Origin: a virus
Strand: one strand, 5' to 3'
DNA length: 48,114 nt
Virus record (IMG/VR): IMGVR_UViG_3300037200_000025
Span: 1-48,114 of that record
Under the pieces are notes generated by a model. It was not told the DNA's origin. It was given only the letters and a program-made list of their open reading frames with translations, and made no database searches. Of the stretch, positions 22,388 to 41,948 are shown in pieces. The position numbers were made by a program, and so were the translations under genes. Within the stretch, counting starts at the first letter, position 1, and the number at the start of each line of letters is the position of its first letter.

Positions 22388-24094
22388 TTACGCGCTCCCT
22401 CTTGCGGTCCGTGTCGCCTGTTCTTTCGTCATCCCGAAAGCGGACTCGTAGAGCGCGACATAGTCTGCGTCAGGGTCCGCAGCCTGACGCCGGGATTCCT
22501 TCGGCTTCATTTTTCCGGTACCGCCGCAGTCCGAGCAGTCCTCGCCGTCTTCGTCTTCGCCCTCGCCTTTGCAGGTAGGGCACATGGCTCTCTTCGCCTC
22601 TTCAGCAGAGACAGTGCCGAGGCCCGTAACCTTCGAGCCGTTCGGGAGAGTCGCGCCAAAGCGCCGCGCTTCCGCCATCACGAGTTCCGAGAGTTTGGTC
22701 TCGTTGAGAACGCCCGCATCGTTGGGGATCGGATCACGCAGCACGTTCGCCACGATGTAATCCTTCTGAGCTTCTGAGAGCGAGACGCCTTTCAGCGCCC
22801 GCATCCCGGCTACGGTCGCATCCCCCCGGAGCGCCCGTTCCCGCAGCGGAGTCGTGGCCGACGCTACCGCCGATTCGATGAGTTTTTGTACTTCGGCCTT
22901 TTCGGCTTCTGTCATTTCAACCTGCCCTTCATTTGAGTTGTCGGTTCGGGCCGACTCCCGCAAAAACATTCCTCCCGCCCCGGCGCGCGTGACCATATCC
23001 ACGCCTTCGGCCGCGGTCAATTCCTTAAGGATCGGTACGCCCTCGCGCAACTTAGGCTTGCCGGATTCCATGACTGCCGAGCCGTTCGCCCGGATCGAGA
23101 CACCCGCGTAGGGCCCCTTTTCGTCGATCAGCCCCGCGTAGTCAGAGAACGGCTTGATGCGCCCGTAGAGTCCTGGACCTTGGGCGTGATCGTCATGCCA
23201 GACCGCATCCGATTCGAGCACGGCGCCCCAGTCCTTGACCGAGCCCTCGGGCCGCGCCGCCTCTTCCGCCCGGGTCGGGTGATCGATCCGCATCGGAGTT
23301 CCGGCTTTGAACACGTTTGGCCCGTCGCGCTTCAGCACTTCAGCCGGGTAGAACGCGCTCGAACCCTTGCCTGGCGCGATGAGCTTGATGTTGTACGACG
23401 GCTTGAACGCCTCCCGAAGCTCGATATCGACCGGGAAGGTGACGGATTCCTTCAGTTTCAGGATGCCGCTGGTTTCACGTGAAACCGCGGATTCCTTCGG
23501 AGAGATCACCGCGAAGCCCTTGCGCTTCGCTATCGCGTCCGCACGCTTCCGAATGGTCGCTGCGGAGTAGTTCCCGCTTCCAGCCCTTCCGAGCGCTCGA
23601 ATCGCGTTGTGGTAATCCTCTTCCGTTTCAATCGGGTACGAGGTTCCCTTACCGGCGAAGTCGGATTTATCCATCGACTCGCGTTTGGTCTTGGAGATGA
23701 AACGCTCTGCCAGACGGAGATCGGTTCCCGGCTTGTAGAGTTTTTCCGATTCCATCGACGCAATGTGCTGGTCGAAGTCTTCATCGGTGGGCGCTTCGGG
23801 GTAGGTCACCTGGGCGTAGACCTTTTTCGCTTTCGCGTGATCGATCGAGGCCGTGGGCTTGCCGTCGATCTCCCCCATTTCGTAGGGAGCCTTTTTCAAA
23901 GTTCCGTTGTGGGAGTAAACCACGTCGCCGGATTCGTCATCTCCGAAGACACCGTGGATGTAGCCGTAGTTATTGCCGCTTTTCAGATGCGCGTCGAGCG
24001 CATCTGAGAGCCGCCCGCGGATATCCTCGTGAGACAGCGCGGTTGCCGCCTCGCAAAGTGTCAGCGCCAGAAAAGGCGTGCCGTCGGGAGCCAT
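22388..24094 (-). CDS. capsid maturation protease fused to scaffold, 568 aa, with DnaJ-type zinc module
   Basis: Residues about 1-200 include a helical part with KSDFAGKGTSYPIETEEDY and NYSAATIRKRADAIAKRKGF. The protease region spans about 215-385 (FYPAEVLKRDGPNVFKAGTP, MRIDHPTRAEEAARPEG, GLYGRIKPFSDYAGLIDEKG, GVSIRANGSAVMESGK). The scaffold-like part (about 390-500) is helical (EMTEAEKAEVQKLIESAVAS). A CPTCKGEG/CSDCGGTG pair follows at 505-527. Protease plus scaffold in one chain is known for Mu- and HK97-type phages; the zinc pair is an addition. Its start abuts a minus-strand TACTAT box ten bases upstream. Confidence 0.7.
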   Translation of the reverse strand: MAPDGTPFLALTLCEAATALSHEDIRGRLSDALDAHLKSGNNYGYIHGVFGDDESGDVVYSHNGTLKKAPYEMGEIDGKPTASIDHAKAKKVYAQVTYPEAPTDEDFDQHIASMESEKLYKPGTDLRLAERFISKTKRESMDKSDFAGKGTSYPIETEEDYHNAIRALGRAGSGNYSAATIRKRADAIAKRKGFAVISPKESAVSRETSGILKLKESVTFPVDIELREAFKPSYNIKLIAPGKGSSAFYPAEVLKRDGPNVFKAGTPMRIDHPTRAEEAARPEGSVKDWGAVLESDAVWHDDHAQGPGLYGRIKPFSDYAGLIDEKGPYAGVSIRANGSAVMESGKPKLREGVPILKELTAAEGVDMVTRAGAGGMFLRESARTDNSNEGQVEMTEAEKAEVQKLIESAVASATTPLRERALRGDATVAGMRALKGVSLSEAQKDYIVANVLRDPIPNDAGVLNETKLSELVMAEARRFGATLPNGSKVTGLGTVSAEEAKRAMCPTCKGEGEDEDGEDCSDCGGTGKMKPKESRRQAADPDADYVALYESAFGMTKEQATRTARGSA

Positions 24095-24870: not shown

Positions 24871-25155
24871 TCAATTAAACGGCTCGTACCCTACCGAAAG
24901 CGTTGCTCCGGTAGGGATATAGGCGTAGATCCCGGACAGCGAATACGGAGCCGTATCGTGCCCGACAGCCTGCACCGGCAGAAAGAATCCGCCCCCCGTG
25001 GGCACCGGCAGACCGAGCGTTGCGCCTACGGTCGAGCCGCCGATCCGCACCGTGCCCGTGCCCGATACGATGAACTGAATCCACCGGGCCGTGATGTTCG
25101 GTGAGGCGATCTGGACCGTCGTACTGGCCCCGGCGATATCGGGCAGGTTGTTCAT
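24871..25155 (-). CDS. small structural-type beta protein, 94 aa
   Basis: Start ATG 25155 (ATGA overlap with the J-domain gene); the longer frame lacks support. It reads MNNLPDIAGASTTVQIASPN, with glycine-rich strands (GTVRIGGSTVGATLGLPVPTGG, shortened here by context to a beta pattern) and a C-terminal GATLSVGYEPFN. A small virion decoration or neck protein is likely; family unknown. Confidence 0.55.
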   Translation of the reverse strand: MNNLPDIAGASTTVQIASPNITARWIQFIVSGTGTVRIGGSTVGATLGLPVPTGGGFFLPVQAVGHDTAPYSLSGIYAYIPTGATLSVGYEPFN

Positions 25156-25829
25156 AGACGCGATTTTACACCGAACATGTTGCCCAGTGTTATCGTCGGC
25201 ATTTCGCCGTACCGGATCGCCGCCCCCGGCGCGCCTTCCCACGTCGCCTCTTCGATCATCGCGAGCGCCATCTTTGCGGTTTCGATATTGCGCTGGATCG
25301 GCGCGAGGTTCGCCCGGTCCTTGCCGATCTGTTCGGCTACCATCGCGAGGATTACCGTCTTCGCGCCCTCTGCACCTTTCCAGCGCTTCTCAACGTTCGC
25401 CGCGGCCTTCTCTGCTTTCTCCAGCGCGCGTTCCACTTTCCGCACTTCGGTCTCGTTGGCCTTGATGTCGTTCTGGAGCACCAGGCGAATTCGACCGAGG
25501 ATGTCGAGGTTCTCACCGCCTTCGGCAATGACGCGGAACGCCGTGACCTTGATCGCGTCGAGTGCCCTGGCACGGAAAGCGCCGCCCGATTCGTTGGCGT
25601 CGATCCCGCAGGCGTCGTAAATCGTGCGGGTTGCCGGATTGCTCAGGATGTCAAAAGCGCGCTTCGCCGCCGTGAAAATCTCGTTTTCCACGCCGCCGCA
25701 CAGGTCGGGGTGATACGCCCTCGCGATGTTGAAGAACGCTGCGCGGATTTCGTCTACAGACGCCGATTCAGGGAGTCCGAGCGCCGCGTAGAGAGGCTTT
25801 GAGCTTGCCGACGTGCCGATGAGTTTCAC
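25152..25829 (-). CDS. J-domain (DnaJ-like) cochaperone, 225 aa
   Basis: Residues about 11-75 are a J-domain: LYAALGLPESASVDEIRAAF, then IARAYHPDLCGG with the HPD tripeptide that activates Hsp70 ATPase, then AAKRAFDILSNPATRTIYD. The rest is a long helical, coiled-coil region (EVRKVERALEKAEKAAANVE). It lacks the Gly/Phe and zinc regions of full DnaJ. Start is uncertain: GTG 25829 or the upstream TTG 25847. A J-domain protein within a head gene block suggests it brings host DnaK to capsid or portal assembly. Confidence 0.75.
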   Translation of the reverse strand: MKLIGTSASSKPLYAALGLPESASVDEIRAAFFNIARAYHPDLCGGVENEIFTAAKRAFDILSNPATRTIYDACGIDANESGGAFRARALDAIKVTAFRVIAEGGENLDILGRIRLVLQNDIKANETEVRKVERALEKAEKAAANVEKRWKGAEGAKTVILAMVAEQIGKDRANLAPIQRNIETAKMALAMIEEATWEGAPGAAIRYGEMPTITLGNMFGVKSRL

Positions 25830-25833
25830 TGAT

Positions 25834-26250
25834 CTATCGTAATGCAACGGCGATGGTTGCTTTTACCATCGAAGGAGCCTCTTCCCGATGCTGGTCGAAC
25901 GCGGGACGCAAATAGGGTTGCGAGGGCATTCCCGGCCAGTTCGGATCGTAGGGGCCGTCGCCCGCGCCCGCCGATGCCGCGCCGCGGATTCCCGTGCCGA
26001 ATTCCACGTAGACGGAGTGATCCGAGTCGTAGACGATTGCCGCCGTAAAGGTCTTTCCAGTGATGGCTACTTCGACGCGCCCGGACGCCTTGAGTTCGCC
26101 CGTATCCACGGCGACGAGTTCCTGCGAAGTCTGAAATACAAGGTTTGCCCAATCGGTTACGGCCTGTAATACAGCGTCGTCAATCGTCGCGGCGACGAAG
26201 CGGCCGCCGTCGCGCGGCTGGTAGCGGGCAAAACTTGTCAAGTTAATCAT
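25834..26250 (-). CDS. HK97 gp10-like head-tail/minor protein, 138 aa
   Basis: Contains VDTGELKASGRVEV, then YDSDHSVYVEFGTGIRG and MPSQPYLRPAFDQHR: the VDTGxLxxS...YxxYxExGT...QPFLxPA pattern of the HK97 gp10-like family. These sit at the neck or act as tail-component proteins. It overlaps the gene before it by ATGA. Confidence 0.75.
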   Translation of the reverse strand: MINLTSFARYQPRDGGRFVAATIDDAVLQAVTDWANLVFQTSQELVAVDTGELKASGRVEVAITGKTFTAAIVYDSDHSVYVEFGTGIRGAASAGAGDGPYDPNWPGMPSQPYLRPAFDQHREEAPSMVKATIAVALR

Positions 26251-26540: not shown

Positions 26541-26755
26541 CCGCGCAACCTCAATACCTCTAATTGTACAACCGGGGTCCAGTGCCGCACACCTGCACCG
26601 GCATCGCGCGGCTTCCATTCGCATCCGCACTTCGGACAGGCCCACACCGTGACGCCTGCGAGTTTACCGGCTCGCGAATCCCGCGCGAAAGGCTTGTTGC
26701 AGCAGTCGTCTTGTTCGGCGATTTCGATGTAGCAGACCGGCGCTTCACTCTCCAC
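26537..26755 (-). CDS. zinc-ribbon protein, 72 aa (GTG start)
   Basis: GTG at 26755 overlaps the portal stop by 11 bases. CYIEIAEQDDCCNKPFARDS and CPKCGCEW supply two cysteine pairs, a zinc ribbon. Unknown role; it follows the portal gene. Confidence 0.6.
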   Translation of the reverse strand: MESEAPVCYIEIAEQDDCCNKPFARDSRAGKLAGVTVWACPKCGCEWKPRDAGAGVRHWTPVVQLEVLRLRG

Positions 26756-28766
26756 CTTTGGACTCCATGAGTTTCAGCATTACCATGACGCGCGCCATAG
26801 CCTCTTTGACGGCCTTGGCGGTAGGTTTGACAGGCGGAGCGCCGGGCGCCCCCGGTTCAGTGCCGGGTTCCGGTTCCGGATCATCCTTGCGCACCGGATC
26901 GTAGGCGTCAGGTCCGGTTTCCGGGTACTGATCCTCGATCAACTCGTCGTTATCGGGCAGTCCGATGACCTTGCCGAGCAGCCGCACGCTCTCTTTTTCG
27001 TCGGTTCCGACGACTTCGCCCATCGTGTTTCCCAAGGTCATCGCGTTCACGATTGCCGCCACTTCCGCCGGCACGTCGGCTTCGATGATGGTAGGGAAAT
27101 CGGCCATCACCTGAATCTGTTTCGTGTTCGTCGGGTCCGGGTTGTACTTCATGCGCCCAGATTCAGAGACGACGCGCGGACAATCCACGATCATCGGAAC
27201 TTCGTAGAGTGGAACTTTACTGCCGGATTCGTTGAGATTCAGCGCTGTGGCCTTGCGCTCTTTGAACGCTTCCATGAGCTTGCCGGACGGCGCACGGGAA
27301 CTGGCCTGCAGTTGGTATTTCGCAAGCTCTACGAGGTCTTCGCTCCAGACTTCCTGCTGCTCGCTGAAGTTCAGTTCCGTGGGCCGGTCGAGGCTTGTAG
27401 CGGTCGCCAGATTTGACGTGTTCATGTCGGCCCAGAACGACTCCGGGCAACCGAACACCATAGCCACCTGTAATTTGTATTCGCGGACCTTCGCCGGGTC
27501 GAATCCCGCGCCCTTCGTTTCGAACGCCTTCAGTTCCGTGCCTGGACCGCCCGCGAAGATCGCGCCAGCCACAGCCGTGGGGTTCTGATCCCAGAGGTCC
27601 GCGTTCGGCCCCACCGTCGTGCTCAACTGCGTTTTCGCGCCCTCCAGCGCCTGCTGACCGCCCTTCGTGGTGAGCAGCAGCGAGAACTGCGCCAGCGAAT
27701 TGTTGATGGTCATGCAGTCCTCGAGGAACCGCTGGACCGCCTTCGCCATGCCGAGCGCCGGGTAGATTAGGGGGAGCGCGAAATGCCACCACACCGGGAC
27801 GCTGGAGCACTTGCGGTGATAGACACGCGCGTTCCACTGGATATCGATGCCCTGCCACTGCGCCGGCAGATCGGAGCCAAAGGTATCAGGGTAATTTGCC
27901 GGGTCGAACTTCAGCGCCGGATACCAGGCCTTTCGCGCCTGCACTCGCAACGTGCCGTCTGCCGGATTGACTTCCTTCGCAACCCACTCGCGCCGATAGA
28001 ACCACGGCACACTCGAATCGTCGGGGTCGCACACGATATCGAGTATTTCCAGCGCGTCGAGCAACCGCACGTTGACTTCGCCGGTCGCGGTTTCGTCGGT
28101 GAAGTTGACCCAGAATATGTTGCCGTCCGTGAACTTGAGCCGGTGCGTCTCCGCAAGAGCCGTGTGACCGAGCACGCGCTTATTGCGCTCGCGCCAGTCC
28201 TTCAGTACCTGGTTGGCATCTTCGTCCGTGCTTGTGATTTCGACGCCGCGCCCGAACACGTACTGCGCCGAAACATTGATGCCGCGGTTCAGCATCGGGT
28301 CTTTCACGGCCCGCAGCCGCGCGATCAGGATTACCTGCTGGATCCCCCACCGCGTGAACTCCAGCCACGAGAGATTGGTTTCCCGGCGCCAGTCGATGTT
28401 CTGAAGCATCAGTTCAGTGTCGCCGTAGGCTCCCTGCGCCACAAACGGACTGGTGGATTCCCCGAGCTGGAGCGGAGTGGATTTCGGATCGTTGCGCAGC
28501 CGGTCGGCTTCCGGCATCCGCCACGGGCCTGTACCTCGCATCATGCTCATTTCGTACAGTTCGGCGTCGTTCTCGCGTTCGGTGCGGATGCGGTCGGCCT
28601 CGCGCGCCCGGTGCATCAAAACCTCGTTTGCGAGTGCGGCGTTCGTGCGCTCTAACGCCGCCTCACGCCGGATGCCGTCTGATGCCTGGCGGATGTAGGA
28701 TTCGAGCGGAGCCGCGGGCAGTGGAGAAGTGAAACGACGGACAAAGGAGCGCGCGGCTTCGAGCAT
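26745..28766 (-). CDS. portal protein, 673 aa
   Basis: ATG at 28766, six bases after a perfect TATAAT box; the upstream start at 28811 would overlap the divergent gene and is rejected. A typical lambda/HK97-type portal layout: N-terminal helices (about 30-90), a 'wing' with WLEFTRWGIQQVILIARLRA, the core DGNIFWVNFTDE-VRLLDALEILDIV, a stem/clip region rich in hydrophobic helices (WHFALPLIYPALGMAKAVQR), then helices with QVAMVFGCPESFWADMNTS and an acidic Pro/Gly-rich tail. Forms the dodecameric DNA gate at one capsid vertex. Confidence 0.85.
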   Translation of the reverse strand: MLEAARSFVRRFTSPLPAAPLESYIRQASDGIRREAALERTNAALANEVLMHRAREADRIRTERENDAELYEMSMMRGTGPWRMPEADRLRNDPKSTPLQLGESTSPFVAQGAYGDTELMLQNIDWRRETNLSWLEFTRWGIQQVILIARLRAVKDPMLNRGINVSAQYVFGRGVEITSTDEDANQVLKDWRERNKRVLGHTALAETHRLKFTDGNIFWVNFTDETATGEVNVRLLDALEILDIVCDPDDSSVPWFYRREWVAKEVNPADGTLRVQARKAWYPALKFDPANYPDTFGSDLPAQWQGIDIQWNARVYHRKCSSVPVWWHFALPLIYPALGMAKAVQRFLEDCMTINNSLAQFSLLLTTKGGQQALEGAKTQLSTTVGPNADLWDQNPTAVAGAIFAGGPGTELKAFETKGAGFDPAKVREYKLQVAMVFGCPESFWADMNTSNLATATSLDRPTELNFSEQQEVWSEDLVELAKYQLQASSRAPSGKLMEAFKERKATALNLNESGSKVPLYEVPMIVDCPRVVSESGRMKYNPDPTNTKQIQVMADFPTIIEADVPAEVAAIVNAMTLGNTMGEVVGTDEKESVRLLGKVIGLPDNDELIEDQYPETGPDAYDPVRKDDPEPEPGTEPGAPGAPPVKPTAKAVKEAMARVMVMLKLMESKGGE

Positions 28767-28772
28767 GAGCCG

Positions 28773-28780
28773 ATTATAAT
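28773..28780. promoter_or_regulatory. shared bidirectional -10 box, both transcripts predicted leaderless
   Basis: The octamer ATTATAAT reads TATAAT on both strands (28775-28780 rightward, 28778-28773 leftward). Six bases later in each direction is a start codon: GTG 28787 rightward, ATG 28766 leftward. No -35 box is evident on either side, so an activator, extended contacts or the phage sigma-like factor may help. Confidence 0.75.
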
Positions 28781-28786
28781 TCAGCG

Positions 28787-29506
28787 GTGAACTATTCTCC
28801 TTCGTCTGCATTTCGTGGTGAACTGCTGTGTTCTACGGTTGGCCGGCTTCTTGGAGACGCCTGGATGGTAGTTCCTTCCCTGATAGCCCTTCGCAGGCAC
28901 TCTTTCATCGAACTGATCTGCGGAACATACGCGCTGCCGGTCTTCGAGTGGGCGCGACACAATATCGAGGGAGCCGACTGGGAAATCGTTGATACCGTAG
29001 ACGATCCAGACGAGCCGGGACACCCGTACTGTCCAGGCTACGGAAGCATCGCGCTGGACCGTGCCGAAGCCGATCTGCGGAAACTTCACCCGTGCGTCCT
29101 CGGAGCCAAGGAGATTGGGATTGCCTACGGACGCTCCGACCAGCTTTTTCTAAAGAATCCGCCGAAGCCTACCGGCGACATCGTGATTCACCCCTACACG
29201 CGCCACGATTGGAAGAATTGCGATGGCGTTGTAGGGCAAGCCTGCTATCCATCCAGTCCGCGTGTAGTTGGCCTGCCAGACGAGCCCGGCGTGACAGTGA
29301 GCGAGTTCGGTGCGATCTGCACCGCGATCCTTGAGGCCCGCTACTTCGTCGGGGTGCTGAGTTCGTGGACCAACTTCGCCGCGATCTTTCAGAAGCGCCA
29401 GATTATCGCCTCATTCACCGAAGATGTTCCTGTGGTGAACCCGAACGCAATCGCGCTGTACCGGCCATCGCTGGAGCGGCTGCAAGCTACAATCGACGCC
29501 ATGTAA
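28787..29506 (+). CDS. GT9/heptosyltransferase-like glycosyltransferase, 239 aa
   Basis: GTG start six bases past TATAAT. The pattern LLGDAWMVVPSLIALRRH near the N-terminus and EARYFVGVLSSWTNFAAIFQ near the end resembles GT9 (ADP-heptose transferase) proteins: GDxxxxxPxLxALR and GxxSSWTHxAAxFxKP. The middle carries DIVIHPYTRHDWKNCDGVVG. It stands alone on the plus strand with its own promoter and two terminator hairpins after it, the hallmark of a moron. Possible role: changing host surface sugar to block other phages. Confidence 0.6.
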   Translation: MNYSPSSAFRGELLCSTVGRLLGDAWMVVPSLIALRRHSFIELICGTYALPVFEWARHNIEGADWEIVDTVDDPDEPGHPYCPGYGSIALDRAEADLRKLHPCVLGAKEIGIAYGRSDQLFLKNPPKPTGDIVIHPYTRHDWKNCDGVVGQACYPSSPRVVGLPDEPGVTVSEFGAICTAILEARYFVGVLSSWTNFAAIFQKRQIIASFTEDVPVVNPNAIALYRPSLERLQATIDAM

Positions 29507-29510
29507 AGCA

Positions 29511-29546
29511 AAAGGCCCGGTAGCCTTCAGAGCTTACCGAGCCTTT
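29511..29546. terminator. hairpin between convergent genes, leftward-type
   Basis: AAAGGC-CGGTA paired with TACCG-GCCTTT around a loop. Read leftward it is followed by TTTTGCTTT. It would stop leftward transcripts before they run antisense into the GT9-like gene. Confidence 0.55.
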
Positions 29547-29601
29547 GCCAGTTTCAGAAACTTCGTGCGCCGAAATCTATTTTACCAGTTTCGTGTGACA
29601 A

Positions 29602-29640
29602 CACAAAGGGCGATGCCCGAAGACATCGCCCTTTTTTGTG
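29602..29640. terminator. strong hairpin terminator with T-run, rightward-type
   Basis: CACAAAGGGCGATG (29602-29615) pairs with CATCGCCCTTTTTTGTG (29624-29640), ending in T6. On the leftward RNA the loop reads CUUCGG, a stable tetraloop, so it may work both ways. Confidence 0.8.
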
Positions 29641-29655
29641 CAGCGGCGATACGGG

Positions 29656-29764
29656 ACCGGATATTTCGCGTTACCGGATAACGTCGGTTTTCTACTCCAA
29701 CGCCGCACACCGGATCGCGAAACCCGGTCGCCGAAATCCCAGCATAAATCAGCGTTCACCGGAT
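29656..29764. repeat. four ACCGGAT direct repeats in a non-coding gap
   Basis: ACCGGAT at 29656, 29673, 29709 and 29758, all on the plus strand, in the stretch between the terminator and the next leftward gene (noncoding 29641-29774). An ACCGGAT-A-ATCCGGT palindrome also occurs at 30165-30179 near the next gene boundary. They could be iteron-like protein-binding sites, for example a replication or packaging element. No proof in the sequence. Confidence 0.5.
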
Positions 29765-29774
29765 TGCAAGCTAA

Positions 29775-30080
29775 TTACGGTGTTGGCGTGCCGAACGTGA
29801 ACACCAGCGCATCCGGAGGCCCGGTCAGAACGATTGTTACGCTTCCGCTAAGGCTGGACGGTGCCGTATTCGGAATCGTCGCGGTTGCCGTCGCCGATAG
29901 CGTTGCCGTGCCGGCTGCCACGCCGGTCAGAATGCCGCCCAGAGGATTTGAGGTATCGGGAGCGACGGTAAACACGGTCGAATCCGAGGAGGAAAGCGAG
30001 AGGTTGGAAAGTTGAGCGTTGAGCGTTGAAGCCGAAACGGTTACACCCACCGATTGACTCGAAAGCATCGTAAATGTCAT
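29775..30080 (-). CDS. Ig-like (Big2-type) domain protein, 101 aa
   Basis: Start ATG 30080 has AGGAG upstream; an in-frame ATG at 30185 (TAATG) is an alternative that adds 35 unlikely residues. MTFTMLSSQSVGVTVSASTL, SSDSTVFTVAPDTSNPLGG, VAAGTATLSATATATI: the bacterial Ig-like 2 pattern, with strands ending in VTIVLTGPP. Phage Ig-like proteins decorate the capsid or tail and stick to polysaccharide. Confidence 0.65.
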   Translation of the reverse strand: MTFTMLSSQSVGVTVSASTLNAQLSNLSLSSSDSTVFTVAPDTSNPLGGILTGVAAGTATLSATATATIPNTAPSSLSGSVTIVLTGPPDALVFTFGTPTP

Positions 30081-30184
30081 GTGGACTCCTTTGATTGTGA
30101 AGGTTGAGAGGTGGAAAGTGAAGACAAGCGAGTCTCGCCGCCACCGAAGCGATTGAAAGAGAAACCGGATAATCCGGTGGAGCA

Positions 30185-30328
30185 TTACGGGGTCGTAGGG
30201 ACCGGAGTAACCGGAGTAACCGGAGTTGTAGGGTTTATTTTCTCCGCCAGGATACCGATAAGGCCCTGAAGAAATTCGGCGCTGGCAGCTTTGGCTAGTT
30301 GAAGGAGAAGTTGTTCGAATGCACTCAT
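30185..30328 (-). CDS. small amphipathic protein with TPV repeats, 47 aa
   Basis: ATG at 30328, TAA at 30185-30187. The first 30 residues (MSAFEQLLLQLAKAASAEFL) form an amphipathic helix; the tail is TPVTPVTPVPTTP. The repeated DNA ACCGGAGTA codes this tail. A TAGAAT box six bases before the start suggests a leaderless promoter. Possibly a small virion or membrane-active peptide. Confidence 0.6.
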   Translation of the reverse strand: MSAFEQLLLQLAKAASAEFLQGLIGILAEKINPTTPVTPVTPVPTTP

Positions 30329-30334
30329 GCGCTC

Positions 30335-30340
30335 ATTCTA
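30335..30340 (-). promoter_or_regulatory. -10 box before the 47-aa gene, predicted leaderless
   Basis: Minus strand TAGAAT, six bases, ATG 30328. -35 region weak (TTCAGA at 18 bases). It fits the spacing rule seen elsewhere in this genome. Confidence 0.5.
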
Positions 30341-30344
30341 CACC

Positions 30345-30668
30345 TTAAAACCAGTGCTTCTGAATCGCGATATTGACTAGAGTGTAAGCCGCGCCCGCTA
30401 CCAGCGATATCACCGTCAGGGTCCGTGACCGCGTAGCGTTCTCTTCCGATAGTTCCCGGCTACGCCGTTCGGCCAGCTCCGCGATCGCACGCGCGGCCCC
30501 AACCTGTTCGGCCCGCGTGTTCACCAGCGTATCGAGGCTTGCCTTCATACGGTCCACGGAAGCATTCAGTTCGCCAAACCTTCGCACGTGGTCTTCGAGG
30601 CCGATCTTAAGTCCTTCAACCACACCTTCGAGTCTGGTGATTCTTTCAGTGCATCCCGTTTCAGCCAT
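30345..30668 (-). CDS. holin-like coiled-coil membrane protein, 107 aa
   Basis: Residues 1-80 are a coiled coil (ITRLEGVVEGLKIGLEDHV, LNASVDRMKASLDTLVNTR), then one hydrophobic helix RTLTVISLVAGAAYTLVNI and a short charged end. The layout resembles the XhlA group of phage holin-associated proteins. It sits next to a second small membrane gene, so a lysis pair is plausible. Confidence 0.6.
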   Translation of the reverse strand: MAETGCTERITRLEGVVEGLKIGLEDHVRRFGELNASVDRMKASLDTLVNTRAEQVGAARAIAELAERRSRELSEENATRSRTLTVISLVAGAAYTLVNIAIQKHWF

Positions 30669-30750
30669 GGTGTGAACTTTTGTACGAGCATAGCACTTCT
30701 ATGGCAATTTACCTTAAACTGAGGTGGAATTTATCACGAAGTCGCGCGGT

Positions 30751-30978
30751 TCAGGTTGGATTTTCTTTTTCGTCCGCGTGGCCCTGAAGATTGCCTTTGG
30801 CCTCGCGCGCATCAAGCATCTGCGACATCTTGCCGTTCACGTCCTGCCGAACGACTTCCACGCTTGCCGCGATTTCGGCGTGCTGAGAGTTGCGCGTGCT
30901 GCGGTTTATCAGAGCGATGACGATCTGGACGACGCCCAGAATTGCTGTAGTCCATACCCCGCCATCTGTAGCGCTCAC
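30751..30978 (-). CDS. small membrane protein with coiled coil, 75 aa (possible holin partner)
   Basis: GTG at 30978 overlaps the upstream TGA (GTGA). VWTTAILGVVQIVIALINRS is one membrane helix near the N-terminus; the rest is polar and helical. Opposite topology to the neighbour (N-terminal versus C-terminal membrane helix) suits a two-part lysis system. Nothing definitive. Confidence 0.55.
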   Translation of the reverse strand: MSATDGGVWTTAILGVVQIVIALINRSTRNSQHAEIAASVEVVRQDVNGKMSQMLDAREAKGNLQGHADEKENPT

Positions 30979-31121
30979 TTTGGAGGCTCCCGGTCAGGAA
31001 CGGAGCCGCGTCCACCGCATACCTGACAACGCTCGTCGTGTTTGGTTGTTCCGAATCCTTCGCAGTCGGCGCACACCTTGCGCTTCGGCGAAAGGTTCTC
31101 ATGAGGCTTGCGCTTATCCAT
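30975..31121 (-). CDS. stand-alone DnaJ-type zinc-finger protein, 48 aa
   Basis: ATG at 31121, TGA at 30975-30977, GTGA with the next gene. CADCEGFG (residues 17-24) and CQVCGGRG (32-39): two CxxCxGxG repeats spaced by seven residues, as in the DnaJ cysteine-rich region, with almost nothing else in the protein. In this genome the module also sits on four larger proteins. Confidence 0.75.
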   Translation of the reverse strand: MDKRKPHENLSPKRKVCADCEGFGTTKHDERCQVCGGRGSVPDREPPK

Positions 31122-31172
31122 GCAAGCAAGGATACCACCGGAAGAAAGCGGAGCGACGTGGCCCCGCTGCCT

Positions 31173-31457
31173 TCATTTAGCGACACTACCTCCGTTGACG
31201 GGGCCGCCGGTATCTGGCCTGCATCCCTGCGAATCCGGATGCTGCCCGCAGTACTTCACCGTTTCATCGTGACCTACTGGATGTGGCTCACTGAACGGGA
31301 AAGGTCCGCACGGAGGGCCACCGCAACCGCAGAAACATGGCGGAGGCCATAAGGAACATGGGTCCGGAAACTGAAATGCGAAGACTGACGACCCGGCCAG
31401 CGATAGCGCCATTGTGGCGAATACCGCACGAATTGCTAATGCCTTTAATGCTTTCAT
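31173..31457 (-). CDS. secreted Cys/Pro-rich protein, 94 aa
   Basis: MKALKALAIRAVFATMALSL and SSVFA are a Sec signal peptide. The mature part has many prolines and cysteines: PCSLWPPPCFCGCGGPPCGP, then YCGQHPDSQGC. Likely a disulfide-rich exported protein. The start is preceded by GGGAAATTAA; a small AGCCG/CGGCT hairpin lies further upstream. Function unknown. Confidence 0.65.
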   Translation of the reverse strand: MKALKALAIRAVFATMALSLAGSSVFAFQFPDPCSLWPPPCFCGCGGPPCGPFPFSEPHPVGHDETVKYCGQHPDSQGCRPDTGGPVNGGSVAK

Positions 31458-31550
31458 TTAATTTCCCTTTTTTAGCCGTAATGTTCGGCTGAATTCAGAG
31501 TAAAGATGAAATTAAACGTTAAGTGCTCAATACTGAACAGAGCGTGAATT

Positions 31551-32606
31551 TTATTTCACTCCGCAAAAACCGTTCTGAGCGTTCGCCCATGCGCTCATGC
31601 GCCAGCGGCCGCCCTCGTTCCACGCCGCAAGCTCCAGCGGGCCCGCGTGCATCAGAACATCGGACGGGGAAATGATCGTCAGTCGGTTGATATCCGCCGC
31701 CGTCAGAATTCCTTTTTCCATCAGCGCCATAATCCGCGGCAACTCTTCGAGTTGCGGATAATCGCCCTGCGTCATGTGGCGATACCAGTCCTCCGGGTCG
31801 TTTTTCCAGTCGATTGACGTGTAGTAGTCGAGCTTGGCGACACGCCACTCGCGCTTCATGTACCCGTAGTGCTTCAGCCGCGCCGGGATGCGCTTAAAAC
31901 CGTGGATGAGACGCTGAGGCACGCTGGAGCAATGCAGGTTCGGCTTGTCGCTGTTGACGTGCCGCCCGAACGGTGTGCTCTGAAACCGGAACTCCTTCAG
32001 AAGCGTGCGCGAGTCGGGCTTCGAAGGGTCTTCGTGGAACGGGCGAAAGAGACTTGGACGCCAGAAATCACCATAGATGCGGTCCTTGCGCACGGTACCC
32101 GGGTCGTTCCACAGGAACTCGATCTTCAGCGCCCAGCTCTGAACCTCCGGGTGGATCGCGATCTCGTTGCGGATAGCTTCGCCGGCCGGTCCCTCCAAAA
32201 CCTCGTCGCCGTCGATGCAGAGTATCCAGTCCGGCGCGCAAACTCGGATGATCTGGTCATAGAGCCAGTTCTTATCTCTGGACTCGTTGAGCCCTTCGAA
32301 GGGTGAATCGAACACCGTAACGGTCTTCTGGCCCTTCAGGTAGCCGTGCGGGTGCGCGTCGGTCAGCGCGCGGCAGAGATCCGGCGTGCCATCGGTCGAG
32401 TGATCGTCCAGCACGAAAACATGGTCGCAGAGCTGGAACGTGGAGCGGATTACCTCTTCGATCCAGCGCGCCTCGTTATGGACGCGGAGCATGGCTACAA
32501 ACGGGAAGTGACGCCGGGAGAATGCGTGGTGGTGTTCGCCGTTCGGGACGCCGCACCCGGAACATTGCCAGTGCTCGAAGGTGGTAAGGCCGGTGTATTC
32601 GGTCAT
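31551..32606 (-). CDS. GT2 family glycosyltransferase, 351 aa
   Basis: FVAMLRVHNEARWIEEVIRS and FVLDDHSTDGTPDLCR form the GT-A nucleotide-binding start; WILCIDGDEVLEG holds the DxD-type metal motif. A CSGCG near residue 15-19 may bind zinc. The C-terminal half (YMKREWRVAKLDYY onward) is helical. It overlaps the 64-aa gene by ATGA. One of four GT2 genes here. Confidence 0.8.
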   Translation of the reverse strand: MTEYTGLTTFEHWQCSGCGVPNGEHHHAFSRRHFPFVAMLRVHNEARWIEEVIRSTFQLCDHVFVLDDHSTDGTPDLCRALTDAHPHGYLKGQKTVTVFDSPFEGLNESRDKNWLYDQIIRVCAPDWILCIDGDEVLEGPAGEAIRNEIAIHPEVQSWALKIEFLWNDPGTVRKDRIYGDFWRPSLFRPFHEDPSKPDSRTLLKEFRFQSTPFGRHVNSDKPNLHCSSVPQRLIHGFKRIPARLKHYGYMKREWRVAKLDYYTSIDWKNDPEDWYRHMTQGDYPQLEELPRIMALMEKGILTAADINRLTIISPSDVLMHAGPLELAAWNEGGRWRMSAWANAQNGFCGVK

Positions 32607-32797
32607 AATTCGAATGAGCGAGGCACCCGCTCCCGGTTATGGGTCTCATAGCCGGGAAGGTGGATCGCGTGGCCGGTGTTGGTGTCGAGCACCACGTACC
32701 CTTCCCTGTCATTCCCTCGCGCCTCGAACCCTTCAGGAAGGTATGGGCTTTCGACACTCTTCAGCCTTTCCCACTTCTCAGATAGCTCTGCCGACAT
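32603..32797 (-). CDS. small hypothetical protein, 64 aa
   Basis: MSAELSEKWERLKSVESPYL, then REGYVVLDTNTGHAIHLPG. An AAAGGGG site lies just upstream of the ATG; the gene overlaps both GT2 neighbours. Family unknown. Confidence 0.65.
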   Translation of the reverse strand: MSAELSEKWERLKSVESPYLPEGFEARGNDREGYVVLDTNTGHAIHLPGYETHNRERVPRSFEL

Positions 32798-33761
32798 AGC
32801 ACCCCTTTGGCTTCAGAATTTCAACCGCGTCCATTTCCCCGACGCCGGCAACCATCACCGTGCGCGGCGCTGCGTTCCAGTTCGGGAACTTCGCGAGCGT
32901 CATACGCTCCAGATACATCGTGCACGGCGGCCAGTCCGTATATCGGAGCGTGCGCGGGTCGTAGCCTTCGCCGCTGTCCGGATCCGGGTTCGGGTACGTC
33001 AGAACGTCGCCCACGAAGTACCGATTCCATTTGTTCATCCACCGGACCACGCCCGCGTGAATGCGTTTAGCCGATTCCGGCGATTTGGTCGAGGATTCGT
33101 GGTGCAGGATATCGACGCCGGGTATGCAGGCGATGCGGTAGCCCGCCAGGCGCAGCCGGATCATCAGGTCCACTTCTTCATGGTGACCGAGCGTGATGTC
33201 CATCACTCCGAATACCGTCTTGGCGAAATTTTTTGGATTTGGCCTGTAAGGCCAAATCGAATTCTGGTTTGGTTGAGGTCGCTTCCAAACGTCGCGCCGA
33301 ATTGCAAAACAGTACCCTGCACTCCACAGGCACTCATTGTACAGGCCGTTGTTAAAGCCGTAGTGACCAGCGCCGGGAAACACCTGAGCTACTTCCGGGT
33401 GCGCGTCGAGTATCGCGCAGAACTGCTCATCCCAGCCGCGCGTGCGGATGTCAACGTCGTTATCGAGGTAGGCTACGTAGGGCGTTTCGGCGAGTTCGAA
33501 GAGTTTGTTCACTGCGCCTGCGTAGCCGACGTTCGAATCAAGTTGAACGATCTCGAATCGTGGATTACGCATCTTCGCGTTGATTATGTGCGCCTGAGTA
33601 AAGCCGTCTTCGAGTCGCCCGTCCGCTGACAATGCATCACTCGGGTTATGCACGATGAAGCACCGCCAGTCTGTTGTGCTCATCGCTTCGATGCTGGCCA
33701 GCGTGGCGCGCAGTTTCTCAGGGTTGCGGTAGGAGGCTACTCCTATGTCGAGGCGTCTCAC
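32778..33761 (-). CDS. GT2 family glycosyltransferase, 327 aa (GTG start)
   Basis: GTG 33761 overlaps the upstream TGA. RRLDIGVASYRNPEKLRATL and VGYAGAVNKLFELAETPYVA lead to YLDNDVDIRTRGWDEQ, the acidic D-x-D-like site. Later HHEEVDLMIRLRLAGYRIAC and DILHHES resemble the ED/HH end of GT2 enzymes such as rhamnosyl- or galactofuranosyl-transferases. Substrate not readable from sequence. Confidence 0.8.
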   Translation of the reverse strand: MRRLDIGVASYRNPEKLRATLASIEAMSTTDWRCFIVHNPSDALSADGRLEDGFTQAHIINAKMRNPRFEIVQLDSNVGYAGAVNKLFELAETPYVAYLDNDVDIRTRGWDEQFCAILDAHPEVAQVFPGAGHYGFNNGLYNECLWSAGYCFAIRRDVWKRPQPNQNSIWPYRPNPKNFAKTVFGVMDITLGHHEEVDLMIRLRLAGYRIACIPGVDILHHESSTKSPESAKRIHAGVVRWMNKWNRYFVGDVLTYPNPDPDSGEGYDPRTLRYTDWPPCTMYLERMTLAKFPNWNAAPRTVMVAGVGEMDAVEILKPKGCYVGRAI

Positions 33762-34129
33762 AGATCCACTGTCCTGATTTCTCCGGTTACTTTGAAATCG
33801 ATACTTGTCATAATTGAAATGCCTTGGCGGTAATCCGAATTGACATGCGATGTAACATCGGCAATTTCGCGGGTCCAGTTCATCGCAAATGCCTTGCAAT
33901 CCATCCTGAAAACCGACTTATCGGGATTCTGAACGAACACAACCACCTTCGATTCGCCGAACGCAGGAATCTTATTGAATACCTTCACTTTTGGCGGTTC
34001 AGGTATTTCCACGGTCGGCGGCGTCACAATCAACGCCCGCTGGTCAGTGTCCGGTACACCACCGATAATCGGAGCAATCATTGCGCCCGCGCCGAAGATG
34101 CCGAGAAAGCCGCGCCGGTTTGTGTTCAT
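33758..34129 (-). CDS. twin-arginine-signal protein, 123 aa, unknown function
   Basis: MNTNRRGFLGIFGAGAMIAP matches a Tat signal (NRRGFLG plus hydrophobic run). The mature part is beta-like: VTPPTVEIPEPPKVKVFNK, SKVVVFVQNPDKSVFRM, ITSIDFKVTGEI-type strands. It is the second Tat-type protein of this phage with the same NRRGFLG start. Likely exported folded. Confidence 0.65.
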   Translation of the reverse strand: MNTNRRGFLGIFGAGAMIAPIIGGVPDTDQRALIVTPPTVEIPEPPKVKVFNKIPAFGESKVVVFVQNPDKSVFRMDCKAFAMNWTREIADVTSHVNSDYRQGISIMTSIDFKVTGEIRTVDL

Positions 34130-34150
34130 CGCGTCATCCAGTCTTTCGGT

Positions 34151-34690
34151 TTATCGGCCATAGAAAAATCCTTTACCGCCGCAGTTCGCGCAGCGCGAGT
34201 TTGTAATCGAGCCTCCGCTGCCGCCGCACGCCGGGCACGTCACCTTGCGCGGCTGTGGCCAATCCTCCGGGTCTTTCCAATCGAACACCGGATGGCCGTC
34301 GGGATCTTCAGCGCTCCATGCGGGCGATGGCATGTTGAGCACCAGCGCTTCGGTATCGCCGTAGTTGTAGAGCGCGCATGGCACGCCGGGTTGCACGATC
34401 TTTTTCTGACCGGGCAACAGAATATAAGTCATCTGAGCTATGACCGGAGAATCTTTTGCTCCAGGACCGTTTAGTATTCCTTTGGTCCTTGTTACCAAGG
34501 TGACATCCCCCGACAGGCAACAGAAGTAGCCGCGCCGCCGCATATGGAGGTGCGGACCCTTGCGCGAGTGCGGAGCGATGGCTGTTACGTACACCTGTTC
34601 CGGTCGCAAGTCCGGACTGTCGAGCGCGTTCCAGATCGGCATGAGCCAGCCGTTCGGCCTGCCTTCGGTGTCCAGCGTTGGAATCTTCAT
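34151..34690 (-). CDS. cupin (RmlC/WxcM-like) with DnaJ-type zinc tail, 179 aa
   Basis: Residues 1-135 look like a cupin of the dTDP-sugar 3,5-epimerase/isomerase group: PEQVYVTAIAPHSRKGPHLH, RGYFCCLSGDVTLVTR, QMTYILLPGQKKIVQPGVP. The HxH in GPHLH fits the active or metal site. The tail carries CPACGGSG (152-159) and CANCGGKG (167-174). A sugar-modifying cupin amid glycosyltransferases suggests a dedicated sugar donor. Confidence 0.65.
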   Translation of the reverse strand: MKIPTLDTEGRPNGWLMPIWNALDSPDLRPEQVYVTAIAPHSRKGPHLHMRRRGYFCCLSGDVTLVTRTKGILNGPGAKDSPVIAQMTYILLPGQKKIVQPGVPCALYNYGDTEALVLNMPSPAWSAEDPDGHPVFDWKDPEDWPQPRKVTCPACGGSGGSITNSRCANCGGKGFFYGR

Positions 34691-35172
34691 AGTCCCTGCT
34701 CCTTAACCACCTCGCGCATTTTAGACAGCGCCTTAGACTTCATGACTCTCCACTGCGCATCGGTTATCTTCATGTCGCGGCAAATCTGCTCAACAGACAT
34801 ACCGGCCATGAAACGCGATAAAGCCTTTTTTTGGGCCGGATAAAGTCCGGCTAAACTCCAGAGATGCGGAATTAACCTGTAGCGCTCCTGCTCTAGGATT
34901 GATTCCAGAGGAAGCCTGTCCGAAGACGGGATGTTCCGGTCGAGCTCCACAGTCGGACGATTCCGGCGCGCATCAATCCCGAATCTGGCTTGCCAGGCTA
35001 TTGTTTTTGCGTACGCAATCGGGTCTTTTACTTCGACCTTGAGCATAGCTTCCATAGTCAGTAAAACTACGTGCTGTCTTATGTCGTCGCGATCTTCGGG
35101 CCGCGCGAGAATGAAGAGTCGCGGGTGAAACCTGTTAAATACTTCGAGCGCAGCGTCTTGCAACTTACTCAT
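34687..35172 (-). CDS. sigma70/ECF-like sigma factor, 161 aa
   Basis: Residues 10-75 resemble sigma region 2: LFILARPEDRDDIRQHVVLL, DPIAYAKTIAWQARFGIDAR. The last 60 resemble region 4: LYPAQKKALSRFMAGMSVEQ, then ICRDMKITDAQWRVMKSKAL, a helix-turn-helix with the recognition helix DAQWRVMKSKAL. Between is a short linker. It is shorter than a primary sigma factor. Plausible job: steering host RNA polymerase to the phage promoters. A YlxM/Sigma-like transcription factor of other kind is the alternative. Confidence 0.65.
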   Translation of the reverse strand: MSKLQDAALEVFNRFHPRLFILARPEDRDDIRQHVVLLTMEAMLKVEVKDPIAYAKTIAWQARFGIDARRNRPTVELDRNIPSSDRLPLESILEQERYRLIPHLWSLAGLYPAQKKALSRFMAGMSVEQICRDMKITDAQWRVMKSKALSKMREVVKEQGL

Positions 35173-35177
35173 AATCT

Positions 35178-35975
35178 CTACGTGCCCGGAGCATACTCGT
35201 AGTCACAGAACAGGATTGCGGCGGCGTTGATCGCATCCCAGTACGCCGAAGTCAGCACGCTGCCGACCAGTGAATAAGCCGCCTGCACCGGCCCGCTGGA
35301 CGTGGTGTACGTAACCGGGAACTGTCGCGCCGTGCCGACGTAGCACGAGACCCCGTAGAGCGGGGGATGAGCGAGTGTATACGCTCCCACCGGACCGCCG
35401 CCCGGCGCCGTAACGGTTGAATACGCCGGCTGCTCATTGCGCACTGGAATAAACGCCGCGCCTGTCGTACTTCCTGAACCAGGAGGGCCTTGAGGACCCG
35501 CAGGCCCCTGAGGCCCGGCGGACCCGGCGGGGCCTGTCGCCCCTGTGGGCCCCGTGGGGCCGGGTATTCCCTGCGGTCCTTGAGGGCCGGGAGGTCCGGG
35601 TGTACCAGGCGACGTGGAACTGCCATTCGTGAGGCTGAAGTTTGCGCTCGATCCGCCCGGCGCGTAGGCCGTGACCGTGTAAGTTCCGGCGATGGAGTTG
35701 GCATAGAACGGAGGCGCGGTAGCTATACCGCCCGTCCCTGTATTTGCGTTTACGGTCTGAGGGCCATTAAATGTCCCCGATGCTCCGGTGGCCGGCGCGA
35801 TGAAGGTAACGGTGATGCCGTTTACCGGCTGGCCGCCCTGAGTCACAGTCGCCTGAAGCGATTGAGCGAACAGCGCGCCCGGATTGGCACTCTGAGGCGT
35901 GCCTGCGGTTGCGGTGATTGTGAGAGTCTGCGCGATCGCGGCCGACGCGAGAATGAAGATCGAGAGCACTTTCAT
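35178..35975 (-). CDS. secreted Ig-like plus collagen-like protein, 265 aa
   Basis: Start ATG 35975: [16 protein letters not shown] is a Sec signal peptide. Then an Ig-like domain ([58 protein letters not shown]), a collagen-like GXY region of about 50 residues ([19 protein letters not shown] onward), and a C-terminal 85-residue domain with one Cys pair likely. Phage fibres use collagen repeats, but an export signal is unusual. The Ig unit has the look of surface proteins of Acidobacteriota (my impression). It may trimerise and be a target of the neighbouring glycosyltransferases. Confidence 0.65.
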
Positions 35976-37516
35976 ATGCGAATCCACCAATCCGGGGTAG
36001 ACGGGTCGTACTTCTCGAATCCCGCCGCCCTGCAAAGTTTCTCCCATTCTGCCACGTCCTCAAACCGATCGTTAACGGCCAGGTGCATCGGCATGGCTCC
36101 GCCCGGGCCCGATCCTTTGCCGAAGGCATTGCGGGCCATCATGAGTCCGTTGGGCTGCAGTGACTCGTAAATACCGCGCAGCCACTCAGAGAGATTTGGC
36201 AGATGCTCAAGAAAGTCCAGCGCTACCACCGCGTCGTATCCACAGACAGGCCACCCGACAGGCCAGAAACTCTCGCTCATGTGCATCGTGTGCATTTGCT
36301 CGCCTGTCTGTCGCCAGTACCGGAAAGCAGCGTATGCTGCTGTCCTCGATCCAGCGAGGTCATGGTAGGTTGCCGGGATGCCCGCGCGGTTCAGAGCCAG
36401 CGTCAGATCGCCAATGCCATCGCCCAGGCAGAGCACGCGCTTGCAGCCGTTCGAGATGAGGCACTGAGCAATCCCGGCGCACATGCCCGCGTAGTTGAAG
36501 CCGAGGTCTTCGTGGTAGGCGCTGAGTTCCCAGATATATGCTTCGGTATTTCGGTAGAAGTCAAGGATTTCGTTTTCCGTGAACGGCGCGCGAGCCGAAC
36601 CTTTCAGTCCGGACCACTCCTGCACCGCAGTATTCCACTCTTCCGTTACTGCCTCATGGAGCGGCCCGAAGCCCTGCGCCAGTTTCTCCGAAGCATCGTC
36701 GGAAGAGATACCAAAGAAAAGAGCTAGTTCAATCGCGCGATCGCTATCCTTCTGAGCTTCGCATATCGCGAGTCCGTTCAGCATAGGGATTGTGAACCGA
36801 GATCCCGTGTACGTCGTGTCGATCGGCCGCGGCGCCAGACCGGCGAAGTCGTCATGCGAGCACGCCTGAACATCGGGATTCACCAGCCGCGCGATGTCGT
36901 AGCGGCTCCAGCGCTCCGGTATCCCGCACTCTCGCGTCTCGCCCAGTTGTCCGGTCAGAACCGCATCCCAGAGCAATTCCGCGGCGTCCCACGCGAACAG
37001 TGGCGAGAACCAGCGGTCGTTGACCTGTGGCGATTGTCCGCGCAGCATGGCTTCGAGCGGGTTTTCGCGCCCGACATGCAGCAACGGGCGAATGCCCAGC
37101 AGGAACGTGAGCCGCACGATGGTATGTCCGCGCGTGGCCGATTCCGCCTCGCGTTTCTGATGCCCGTATCGGTTGGTGGCGGAGCAGACCGCCTGCGAAG
37201 ACACCTGCACCAGCCGCCGGCCATTTTCACCACACCACCATGCCAGATAGCGCGGCAGCAGCACGTTGATCGGGTAGGAGCGGGACGGAGGTTCGCGCTC
37301 TACCAGGTCTACATTCGATTCGCCTGCGAGGTTCACCACCACGTCGGGATTACGCGCCGTGAGCAGGTTCGCGAGCGTGTCCTGATCGGTGAGGTCGTAG
37401 CCTAGCGTGATCGGGTCCGGTGTGCGGCGTACCCAGATGGGCTCTACGCCCGGAGGGATACACAAGCGCATGTGCTGGCCTACGATGCCGCTCGCTCCTA
37501 AGATGAGAACTTTCAA
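35972..37516 (-). CDS. fusion of SDR sugar epimerase/reductase and SAM methyltransferase, 514 aa
   Basis: TTG 37516 has GGAGG seven bases upstream and overlaps the previous TGA (TTGA); ATG 37534 is the alternative. Residues about 1-290 are an extended SDR (RmlD-like): [15 protein letters not shown] with GxxGxxG, then [30 protein letters not shown] with YxxxK-type catalytic Tyr/Lys. Residues about 330-514 are a SAM methyltransferase: [20 protein letters not shown] and [17 protein letters not shown]. The fusion could make and methylate a deoxysugar. Confidence 0.7.
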
Positions 37517-38268
37517 AGCTTTGCCTCCGGCCATTTCTTTCTGAATATGGCGAAATTGCGTGAGAAGTCACCTGATGCAGTCGGCGCGCCACGGAACGAT
37601 GAAGTAAGGCTCCCGTGGTCAACGTAACACCAATCGGATACTCCGACTTTCAATCCGGCAGCGTTGACGGATTCACAATAATCACGGTCTTCACAACCGT
37701 ATCCCTCGCAGTAGCGTTCATCGAGCAGTCCCACGGTGTTGAGCGTGCGGCGCGGGATGTAGACGCAGACGAAAGCGATGTGCGGTACTTCGCGGACCAA
37801 GCTCCCGTCGATGCCGTGAGGACCGCCGCGACGATGCTGAAGAGGCTGGCCCGTCAGATTAGTGGTTGCTCCCACGATGCCGAACACATGCGATTTATCT
37901 TTCCGCATCGTTCCCGCTGCCGTCTGAAGAGCGCGAAACCCTTCCTCGCTTTCCAGCAGCGCGTCGTCGTTGAGCAGCACCACGTCGTCTTCACCAGCCG
38001 CCCTGATGCCGATGTTGCAGTTCCGCGCGAACACGAAGGGGTCGATTCCAGTGACCCACAGATCGCTCACCGCATCCTCGCGATCGTGGCGCCACAATAC
38101 CTCCCGTAGGAACCCGGCATCAGCCATTTGTTCCATCGAAGGTATTACTCCGACATCGAAGTCGTCTACCACGATAATGCGCGCTGTTTCGCCGGCCGCC
38201 CGCACGGCCTTGATACACGCTACAAGATTTGTGGCGTTGCGCGAGGGGATTATGATCGAGAAACTCAC
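37513..38268 (-). CDS. GT2 family glycosyltransferase, 251 aa
   Basis: SIIIPSRNATNLVACIKAVR is the start of GT2; VVLLNDDALLES holds the acidic metal site; DYCESVNAAGLKVGVSDWCY is the late acid region. Overlaps the SDR-methyltransferase gene by TTGA and the small gene before it by ATGA. Confidence 0.8.
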   Translation of the reverse strand: MSFSIIIPSRNATNLVACIKAVRAAGETARIIVVDDFDVGVIPSMEQMADAGFLREVLWRHDREDAVSDLWVTGIDPFVFARNCNIGIRAAGEDDVVLLNDDALLESEEGFRALQTAAGTMRKDKSHVFGIVGATTNLTGQPLQHRRGGPHGIDGSLVREVPHIAFVCVYIPRRTLNTVGLLDERYCEGYGCEDRDYCESVNAAGLKVGVSDWCYVDHGSLTSSFRGAPTASGDFSRNFAIFRKKWPEAKL

Positions 38269-38426
38269 GAGTTGGCAGTCCTCGCAGCGCGAAACAGACG
38301 AGCATTCGCAGAACGGAGATCCTCAATGGCTTTGGTAGCCATGCCGCCGGGATCAGGAACAAGTTTATTTCCAAACAGAGCTTCGAAGTAAACCTTCTCC
38401 CAGAGTTGCTTTTCTTTTTCCGTCAC
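38265..38426 (-). CDS. small hypothetical protein, 53 aa (GTG start)
   Basis: GTG 38426 overlaps the methyltransferase stop (GTGA). TEKEKQLWEKVYFEALFGNK, then KAIEDLRSANARLFRAA: a helical, charged protein. A longer frame to 38603 overlaps the methyltransferase and is rejected. No function. Confidence 0.6.
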   Translation of the reverse strand: MTEKEKQLWEKVYFEALFGNKLVPDPGGMATKAIEDLRSANARLFRAARTANS

Positions 38427-38959
38427 TTCACTGCCTCCAGCGTTGCCTTGATCTTCCACACGCGCTCGCGCGGGTCTTCCCCGCTGCACTCGATCTCTTC
38501 CAGTTTCACCACGCGAAACGACGCTGTGATTCCATAGGACTTCGACAGGCGCCCGTGTGCGAACGTCCCTGCCTCGAAGTACTTGAACGTGCTGAGGCAC
38601 CACGGCGTCTTGTGCGTTGGATCGCAGACGAAGCCCACTCCCTTCGCGGCGTTGGGCACTTCGATGGTTGCGCGGCCGCCCGGCTGGAGCACGCGGTGAA
38701 GCTCGTTCATGAAGTGGATGCGCCCGAGCGGTGATATCTGCCGCATTTCCATCGTTGCCTGATCCATCGCGAACATCCGATTGTGGTTGTCTCCGATGTG
38801 TTCGGCCACGTCGAAGGCTACCACATCTTCAATGCTGGAATCCCGCCAGGGCCACGGCCCCTCAAGGTCTACAACCTGCTGCACGCACGGACCCGGCGTG
38901 ATGTCTACTCCGATAAATCCTTCGACGGCGCGATCACAGCAGCCAAGGTTCAGGCGCAT
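38423..38959 (-). CDS. SAM-dependent methyltransferase, 178 aa
   Basis: ATG 38959 shares TGATG with the HNH gene. RLNLGCCDRAVEGFIGVDI is motif I with GxG-like turn and acidic end; DVVAFDVAEHIGDN is motif II; VLQPGGRATIEVPN is the LxPGG strand. Class I methyltransferase, probably small-molecule or sugar. Partner of the glycosyltransferase cluster. Confidence 0.75.
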   Translation of the reverse strand: MRLNLGCCDRAVEGFIGVDITPGPCVQQVVDLEGPWPWRDSSIEDVVAFDVAEHIGDNHNRMFAMDQATMEMRQISPLGRIHFMNELHRVLQPGGRATIEVPNAAKGVGFVCDPTHKTPWCLSTFKYFEAGTFAHGRLSKSYGITASFRVVKLEEIECSGEDPRERVWKIKATLEAVK

Positions 38960-39606: not shown

Positions 39607-39746
39607 TTGCTTCTGATCTCCCACTGGATTGCCCACAGAGAGAAGATCACAGAAGCCAGCGCAGCGATGCGAAACCAGATCGGATCAGCAGCGTAATCCG
39701 CGGCGATCATAGCTATCGCCGAAAGAATCGCGAACCAGTATTTCAC
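39603..39746 (-). CDS. two-helix membrane peptide, 47 aa
   Basis: GTG 39746, TGA 39603-39605. KYWFAILSAIAMIAA and WFRIAALASVIFSLWAI are two hydrophobic helices. Overlaps both neighbours by GTGA/ATGA. Small size and two membrane spans are holin-like, but no proof. Confidence 0.55.
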   Translation of the reverse strand: MKYWFAILSAIAMIAADYAADPIWFRIAALASVIFSLWAIQWEIRSK

Positions 39747-41946: not shown

Positions 41947-41948
41947 CG

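Follow-up and report, generated by a model that had tools for sequence, protein, structure and literature searches.

A palindromic −10 box between divergent start codons: a candidate minimal two-way promoter for leaderless genes in an uncultured phage

Can a single eight-base box act as the −10 element of two divergent genes whose transcripts begin at their own start codons? The question is raised by a virus record of 48,114 bases from an uncultured phage, hereafter the window, to which all coordinates refer unless another locus is named. The octamer ATTATAAT occurs in the record once, at 28773–28780. It is palindromic and comprises two perfect TATAAT hexamers, one on each strand with a two-base offset; −10-type sequences on both strands thus overlap within it, as in bidirectional promoters with a shared −10. 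The start codons ATG 28766, of the leftward portal gene, and GTG 28787, of a rightward ORF, are separated by 20 bases, and the predicted RNA starts lie 21 nt apart (Table 1). We propose that ATTATAAT is a minimal two-way promoter serving a leaderless portal gene leftward and a leaderless gene for a 239-aa protein rightward, a reading to which we assign a probability of about 0.6.

Table 1. Features around the octamer (window coordinates).
Feature	Position	Strand	Basis or remark
Portal protein, 673 aa from ATG 28766	26745..28766	−	PHROG 10963 portal, E 3.6e-48; N-terminus agrees with relatives
In-frame upstream extension MQTKENSSPLNYNRL	28767..28811	−	Judged not the normal start; no clear counterpart in relatives, no SD
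Six-base spacer	28767..28772	−	Sequence; predicted RNA +1 = A of ATG 28766
−10 element, portal gene: TATAAT	28773..28778	−	Matches position of −10 in 39/43 dereplicated relatives
Proposed −10 element, rightward gene: TATAAT	28775..28780	+	Gap 6 to GTG; clade enrichment
Six-base spacer	28781..28786	+	Sequence; predicted RNA +1 = G of GTG 28787
Divergent ORF, GTG start, 239 aa	28787..29506	+	No earlier usable start; codon score 0.15
Hairpin with U-rich tail, likely stops leftward transcription from upstream genes	29505..29550	−	−25.5 kcal/mol, z −5.0
Hairpin then U run, likely terminator of rightward unit	29600..29641	+	−19.9 kcal/mol, z −5.1

A preliminary description of this DNA had reported the octamer, the TATAAT on both strands, the six-base gaps and the 20-base separation, and all of these coordinates were confirmed. 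The arrangement CA[T/C]-N6-ATTATAAT-N6-[A/G]TG was absent (0 cases) when the window was simulated 1000 times under a first-order Markov model. A looser version, with gaps of 6–8 and three start codons, occurred at a mean of 0.002 per simulation, and the bare octamer at a mean of 0.143, or about one in seven. One could argue that an A+T-rich word came into line with two start codons by chance and has no promoter function, and it agrees with this that TATAAT is not enriched in the window as a whole (4 seen, 4.84 expected). The outcome of the simulations and the equal −10-to-start spacing across the clade (see below) nevertheless make such a coincidence very improbable. No sigma-70-type site with both hexamers was found just upstream of the portal or the rightward gene.

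The portal frame has no stop codon upstream as far as ATG 28811, a point absent from the preliminary description, and on the mechanical ORF the box is therefore intragenic (L-N-Y-N-R-L). Because a start at ATG 28811 would place the octamer in the coding region, relatives were fetched. Single-sequence IMG/VR scans with the portal gave nothing usable; when aligned distant portals served as the query instead, 80 loci came up, about 60 of them at 40–59% identity. A genome scan returned two distant loci only, in MAGs named Bacillota (32% identity) and Dehalococcoidales (26%). We then aligned 21 portals, namely that of the window and those of 20 relatives 42–60% identical to it. The relatives' portals have a short, mostly basic N-terminus and start at or within a few residues of window residue 16, which corresponds to ATG 28766, whereas nothing in them clearly matches the extra 15 residues from 28811. 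Since the 20 relatives begin near there, ATG 28766, the start named in the preliminary description, is upheld, and the alignment supports its position independently of the promoter-like sequence. With TATAAT at a gap of 6 and no SD, the portal gene has the TANNNT element about 6–7 bp before the start that characterises leaderless genes. Its first codons score poorly as coding (−0.32).

If the portal did start at ATG 28811, the octamer would be coding (Asn-Tyr-Asn) and no leaderless portal RNA would arise from 28766. The open frame is compatible with this, as is the coding score of the 15 extra codons (0.33, from a very short sample). However, the extension is missing from the portals of the relatives, an SD precedes neither 28811 nor 28766, and 39 of 43 relatives conserve a −10 ahead of the start that corresponds to ATG 28766; we regard a start at 28811 as very unlikely.

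To assess the conservation of the −10, an approximate E. coli −10 matrix was run, position by position, along the sequence upstream of the portal start in 43 dereplicated relatives. High scores fell at gaps of 6, 7, 8 and 9 nt (11, 16, 7 and 4 sequences, respectively), against 0–3 elsewhere. With a slightly looser cut, a −10 hexamer ends 6–9 nt before the portal ATG in the 39 relatives mentioned above, and their logo reads TA[AT]A[AC]T, with A2 and T6 present in all 39. In 29 of them the fourth base ahead of the box is a G, and no −35 element above control was found at their portal promoters. The portal starts had been chosen by homology and inspection. The −10 element had been seen by eye before scoring, and for this reason loci from a later scan were checked; L372 and L392 carry the element, L391 and L393 do not. 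Portals about 30% identical show no such element, and several have SD-like sequences instead. The preliminary description had proposed a search for conservation in relatives: the portal −10 at 6–9 nt proved to be conserved, but the palindromic octamer did not, since it is unique to the window and the boxes of the fetched relatives are asymmetric. The refuting condition named in that description, loss of the octamer in relatives with both genes, does not apply here, as every fetched relative lacks the rightward gene. Given the −10 in 39 of 43 relatives, leaderless portal expression is likely a trait of this clade, and ATTATAAT is very likely a leaderless portal promoter, as judged from sequence and comparison.

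Extended −10 promoters have the form TGn TATAAT. The portal hexamers of the relatives share the TGn in 16 of 39 cases (2.4 expected), whereas in the window the TG is missing on both sides of ATTATAAT; AT stands there and makes the palindrome. The window's box may be weak because neither side has the TG extension.

The start of the rightward ORF was placed only by exclusion: its frame has a stop at 28766–28768, no start codon before GTG 28787, and the next in-frame ATG at 28865; no homologues were found. This ORF also has the leaderless-type arrangement, with TATAAT at a gap of 6 before GTG 28787 and no SD. Its codon score lies within the held-out range of window genes (0.05–0.42) and is the best among + strand ORFs of at least 150 aa, and its first 40 codons score poorly (−0.24). 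Terminator-like hairpins set the rightward unit and the portal apart from the upstream leftward genes; the hairpin on the + strand lies about 100 bp past the ORF stop. No other + strand promoter-like site was found in 28000–32700.

The preliminary description had labelled the rightward gene glycosyltransferase-like. We found no homologue of the protein in profile libraries, PDB sequences, phage and plasmid records or the fetched loci, and the label is therefore unsupported: up to E 10 neither Pfam nor PHROG gave a match, no similar sequence was found in the PDB, and PF01075 was not found in the record. A single-sequence IMG/VR scan with the protein gave nothing usable, and the gene is absent from every fetched relative. 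No glycosyltransferase profile matched, and the GT9-like appearance of the N-terminus is no more than our impression. A weak match, H21 (E 0.2), was dropped; it lies in a sugar epimerase-like ORF. The AlphaFold2 model of the protein alone (pLDDT 31) was useless.

The orphan nature of the rightward ORF bears on a one-way reading, in which the box drives the leaderless portal only, the rightward hexamer simply follows from the symmetry of the −10, and the + strand ORF has a promoter elsewhere, is not expressed, or is no gene. The portal −10 is conserved though the rightward gene is missing from all fetched relatives, as this reading would have it. Nevertheless, the ORF has coding-like codon use and is followed by a terminator-like hairpin, 28000–32700 offers no other promoter-like site on the + strand, and a GTG stands exactly at gap 6 behind a perfect hexamer; we consider one-way use rather unlikely. 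Our preferred reading, that ATTATAAT fires both ways, is probable. Of the two leaderless starts put forward in the preliminary description, the portal half is borne out by the relatives' starts and by the −10 in 39 of 43. The rightward half is plausible, in view of the perfect hexamer, the gap of 6, the lack of an SD, the coding-like ORF, the terminator and the gap-6 GTGs of relatives. We must also note that some hosts may make poor use of a leaderless GTG.

Some features of the surrounding genome were also observed. The portal and the large terminase (42326–43693) lie about 13.5 kb apart (28811–42326), whereas in distant reference phages they are adjacent or nearly so. The interval holds several family 2 glycosyltransferase genes, a collagen-like tail-fibre protein and an epimerase + methyltransferase fusion (35972–37534). 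Among the head genes, 25152–25847 codes for a protein with a DnaJ domain (PF00226, E 7.6e-13), and a protease-like protein at 22388–24094 has a weak DnaJ zinc-finger-like match.

Leaderless-type starts are not confined to the portal. In the window and its relatives, ATG ORFs of at least 100 aa following a strong −10 numbered 31, 26 and 15 at gaps 6–8, against 0–6 elsewhere. GTG ORFs following a strong −10 numbered 12 at gap 6, a count that includes near-duplicates and some examples that are probably internal codons, against 0–4 at other gaps. Some of the gap-6 GTG starts stand, by eye, at recognisable N-termini, for instance of methyltransferase-like proteins in L058 and L060. Another start of leaderless type in the window is at 5887 on the − strand (TAAACT, gap 6, ATG, 131 aa).

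Divergent pairs were searched for in 48 dereplicated loci, the window included, with starts 12–60 bp apart and −10 gaps of 6–8. Seven leaderless-type pairs were found, against 0–1 in five control-gap sets; the numbers are small, and by our own estimate about one pair is expected after allowing for the greater number of starts at gaps 6–8. A pair with a common box, ATGTTATCAT, is present in L053 (7044–7068) and in L051, L052 and L055, and consists of an HK97-gp10-like gene (PF04883, E 1.5e-8) and a 95-aa ORF. In L011 (3980–4010) and L013 (327–357) the portal is preceded by AGTTTACTGTAAAAT, in which two −10 boxes face outward at a distance of three bases. The same sequence is kept in L015–L017 (near 2030 in L015), where there is no divergent ATG at the right distance. 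In L039 and L057, a similar divergent gene of 108–111 aa adjoins the portal and has its own box. TTG-start pairs in L020 and L036 look spurious. Of the divergent pairs found, no other with ATG/GTG starts is as tight as that of the window, which also has the sole perfect palindrome. We would give even odds to a broader proposal, in which leaderless −10-only promoters are a main mode of expression in this clade, also where the structural genes begin, −10 boxes that are symmetric or adjoin one another have served divergent leaderless pairs more than once, and in the window the region has shrunk to 20 bases.

The collection was also searched for CAT-N6-ATTATAAT-N6-ATG, with an 11/11 spacing as control; the figures cover the matches listed for each, and the two totals do not bear comparison. 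Among the distinct matches listed, ORFs stood on both sides in three cases against one in the control, which is too few, and a larger excess of one-sided ORFs among the matches listed is inflated by two large families. At 2750–2775 of L129, the arrangement lies within a 16-bp palindrome, TACTATTATAATAGTA, with a 290-aa ORF (PF12322, a T4 baseplate family) on one side and a helicase ORF of 461 aa (PF04851) on the other; this may be a late promoter of T4 type that works in both directions. Among the matches listed, L092 and 42 similar entries make up a large family of prophage-like loci. There, a 127-aa protein (MERERLTVCFHAQLKQRHATM...) has its ATG six bases beyond ATTATAAT and may be the product of a further leaderless phage gene.

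Bacteria are known to have promoters that work in both directions from one symmetric −10 (Warman, Grainger and colleagues; PMC12825309), in agreement with a remark in the preliminary description. Those promoters and the window have in common a pseudo-symmetric −10 read in two orientations, with no need for a −35; the window differs in having predicted starts on the start codons and two complete TATAAT, and its activity is predicted from sequence. In E. coli, the preferred distance between divergent starts is 18 bp, also 10 and 23 bp, with small variations possible (PMC12825309); the predicted 21 nt of the window, if RNA begins at the start codons, is not among these. It had also been argued that the two genes would be forced to compete for polymerase. 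This does not follow, given that five E. coli bidirectional promoters showed no such competition at basal activity, which is too low for it (PMC12825309); the portal and the rightward gene may compete, but need not.

Leaderless genes with a −10 motif adjoining the ORF have been reported in Deinococcus-Thermus (PMC12340547) and in a survey of 953 bacterial genomes (PMC3160421). They share with these phages a TANNNT about 6–7 bp before the ORF and the lack of an SD, but there each motif serves one gene, whereas in the window we propose one box for two. The text of the Deinococcus paper makes no mention of divergent or bidirectional use (PMC12340547). Searches of the open-access literature, from which most subscription journals are missing, turned up no account of a single −10 shared by two leaderless genes. 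The streptomycete ermE region combines divergent promoters with a leaderless gene. It resembles the window in that leaderless transcription occurs beside divergent promoters, but the ermE promoters are separate and are not known to share one octamer.

In the proposed mechanism, TATAAT on either strand would be read by the host RNA polymerase, carrying a sigma factor of the housekeeping type. The leftward RNA would start at the A of ATG 28766 and encode the portal, at the head of the structural genes; the rightward RNA would start at the G of GTG 28787 and encode the 239-aa protein. Both mRNAs would be leaderless and translated from the 5′-terminal start codon. The box probably derives from an ancestral TGn TAnnnT leaderless portal promoter in which TG was swapped for AT; this would have made it symmetric, so that polymerase could load in either orientation.

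If our reading is right, bidirectional −10 elements and leaderless genes, each already known, come together here at perhaps the smallest possible size, as 20 bases between start codons leave no room for a leader, an SD or an operator. A single-base change at either end of the octamer should kill one direction only, which would provide a clean test of how polymerase chooses its orientation. The case is also a warning that gene callers can misplace such starts. The comparison also marks out a clade of uncultured phages in which a leaderless portal gene appears to be the rule, which hints at a host with strong leaderless translation.
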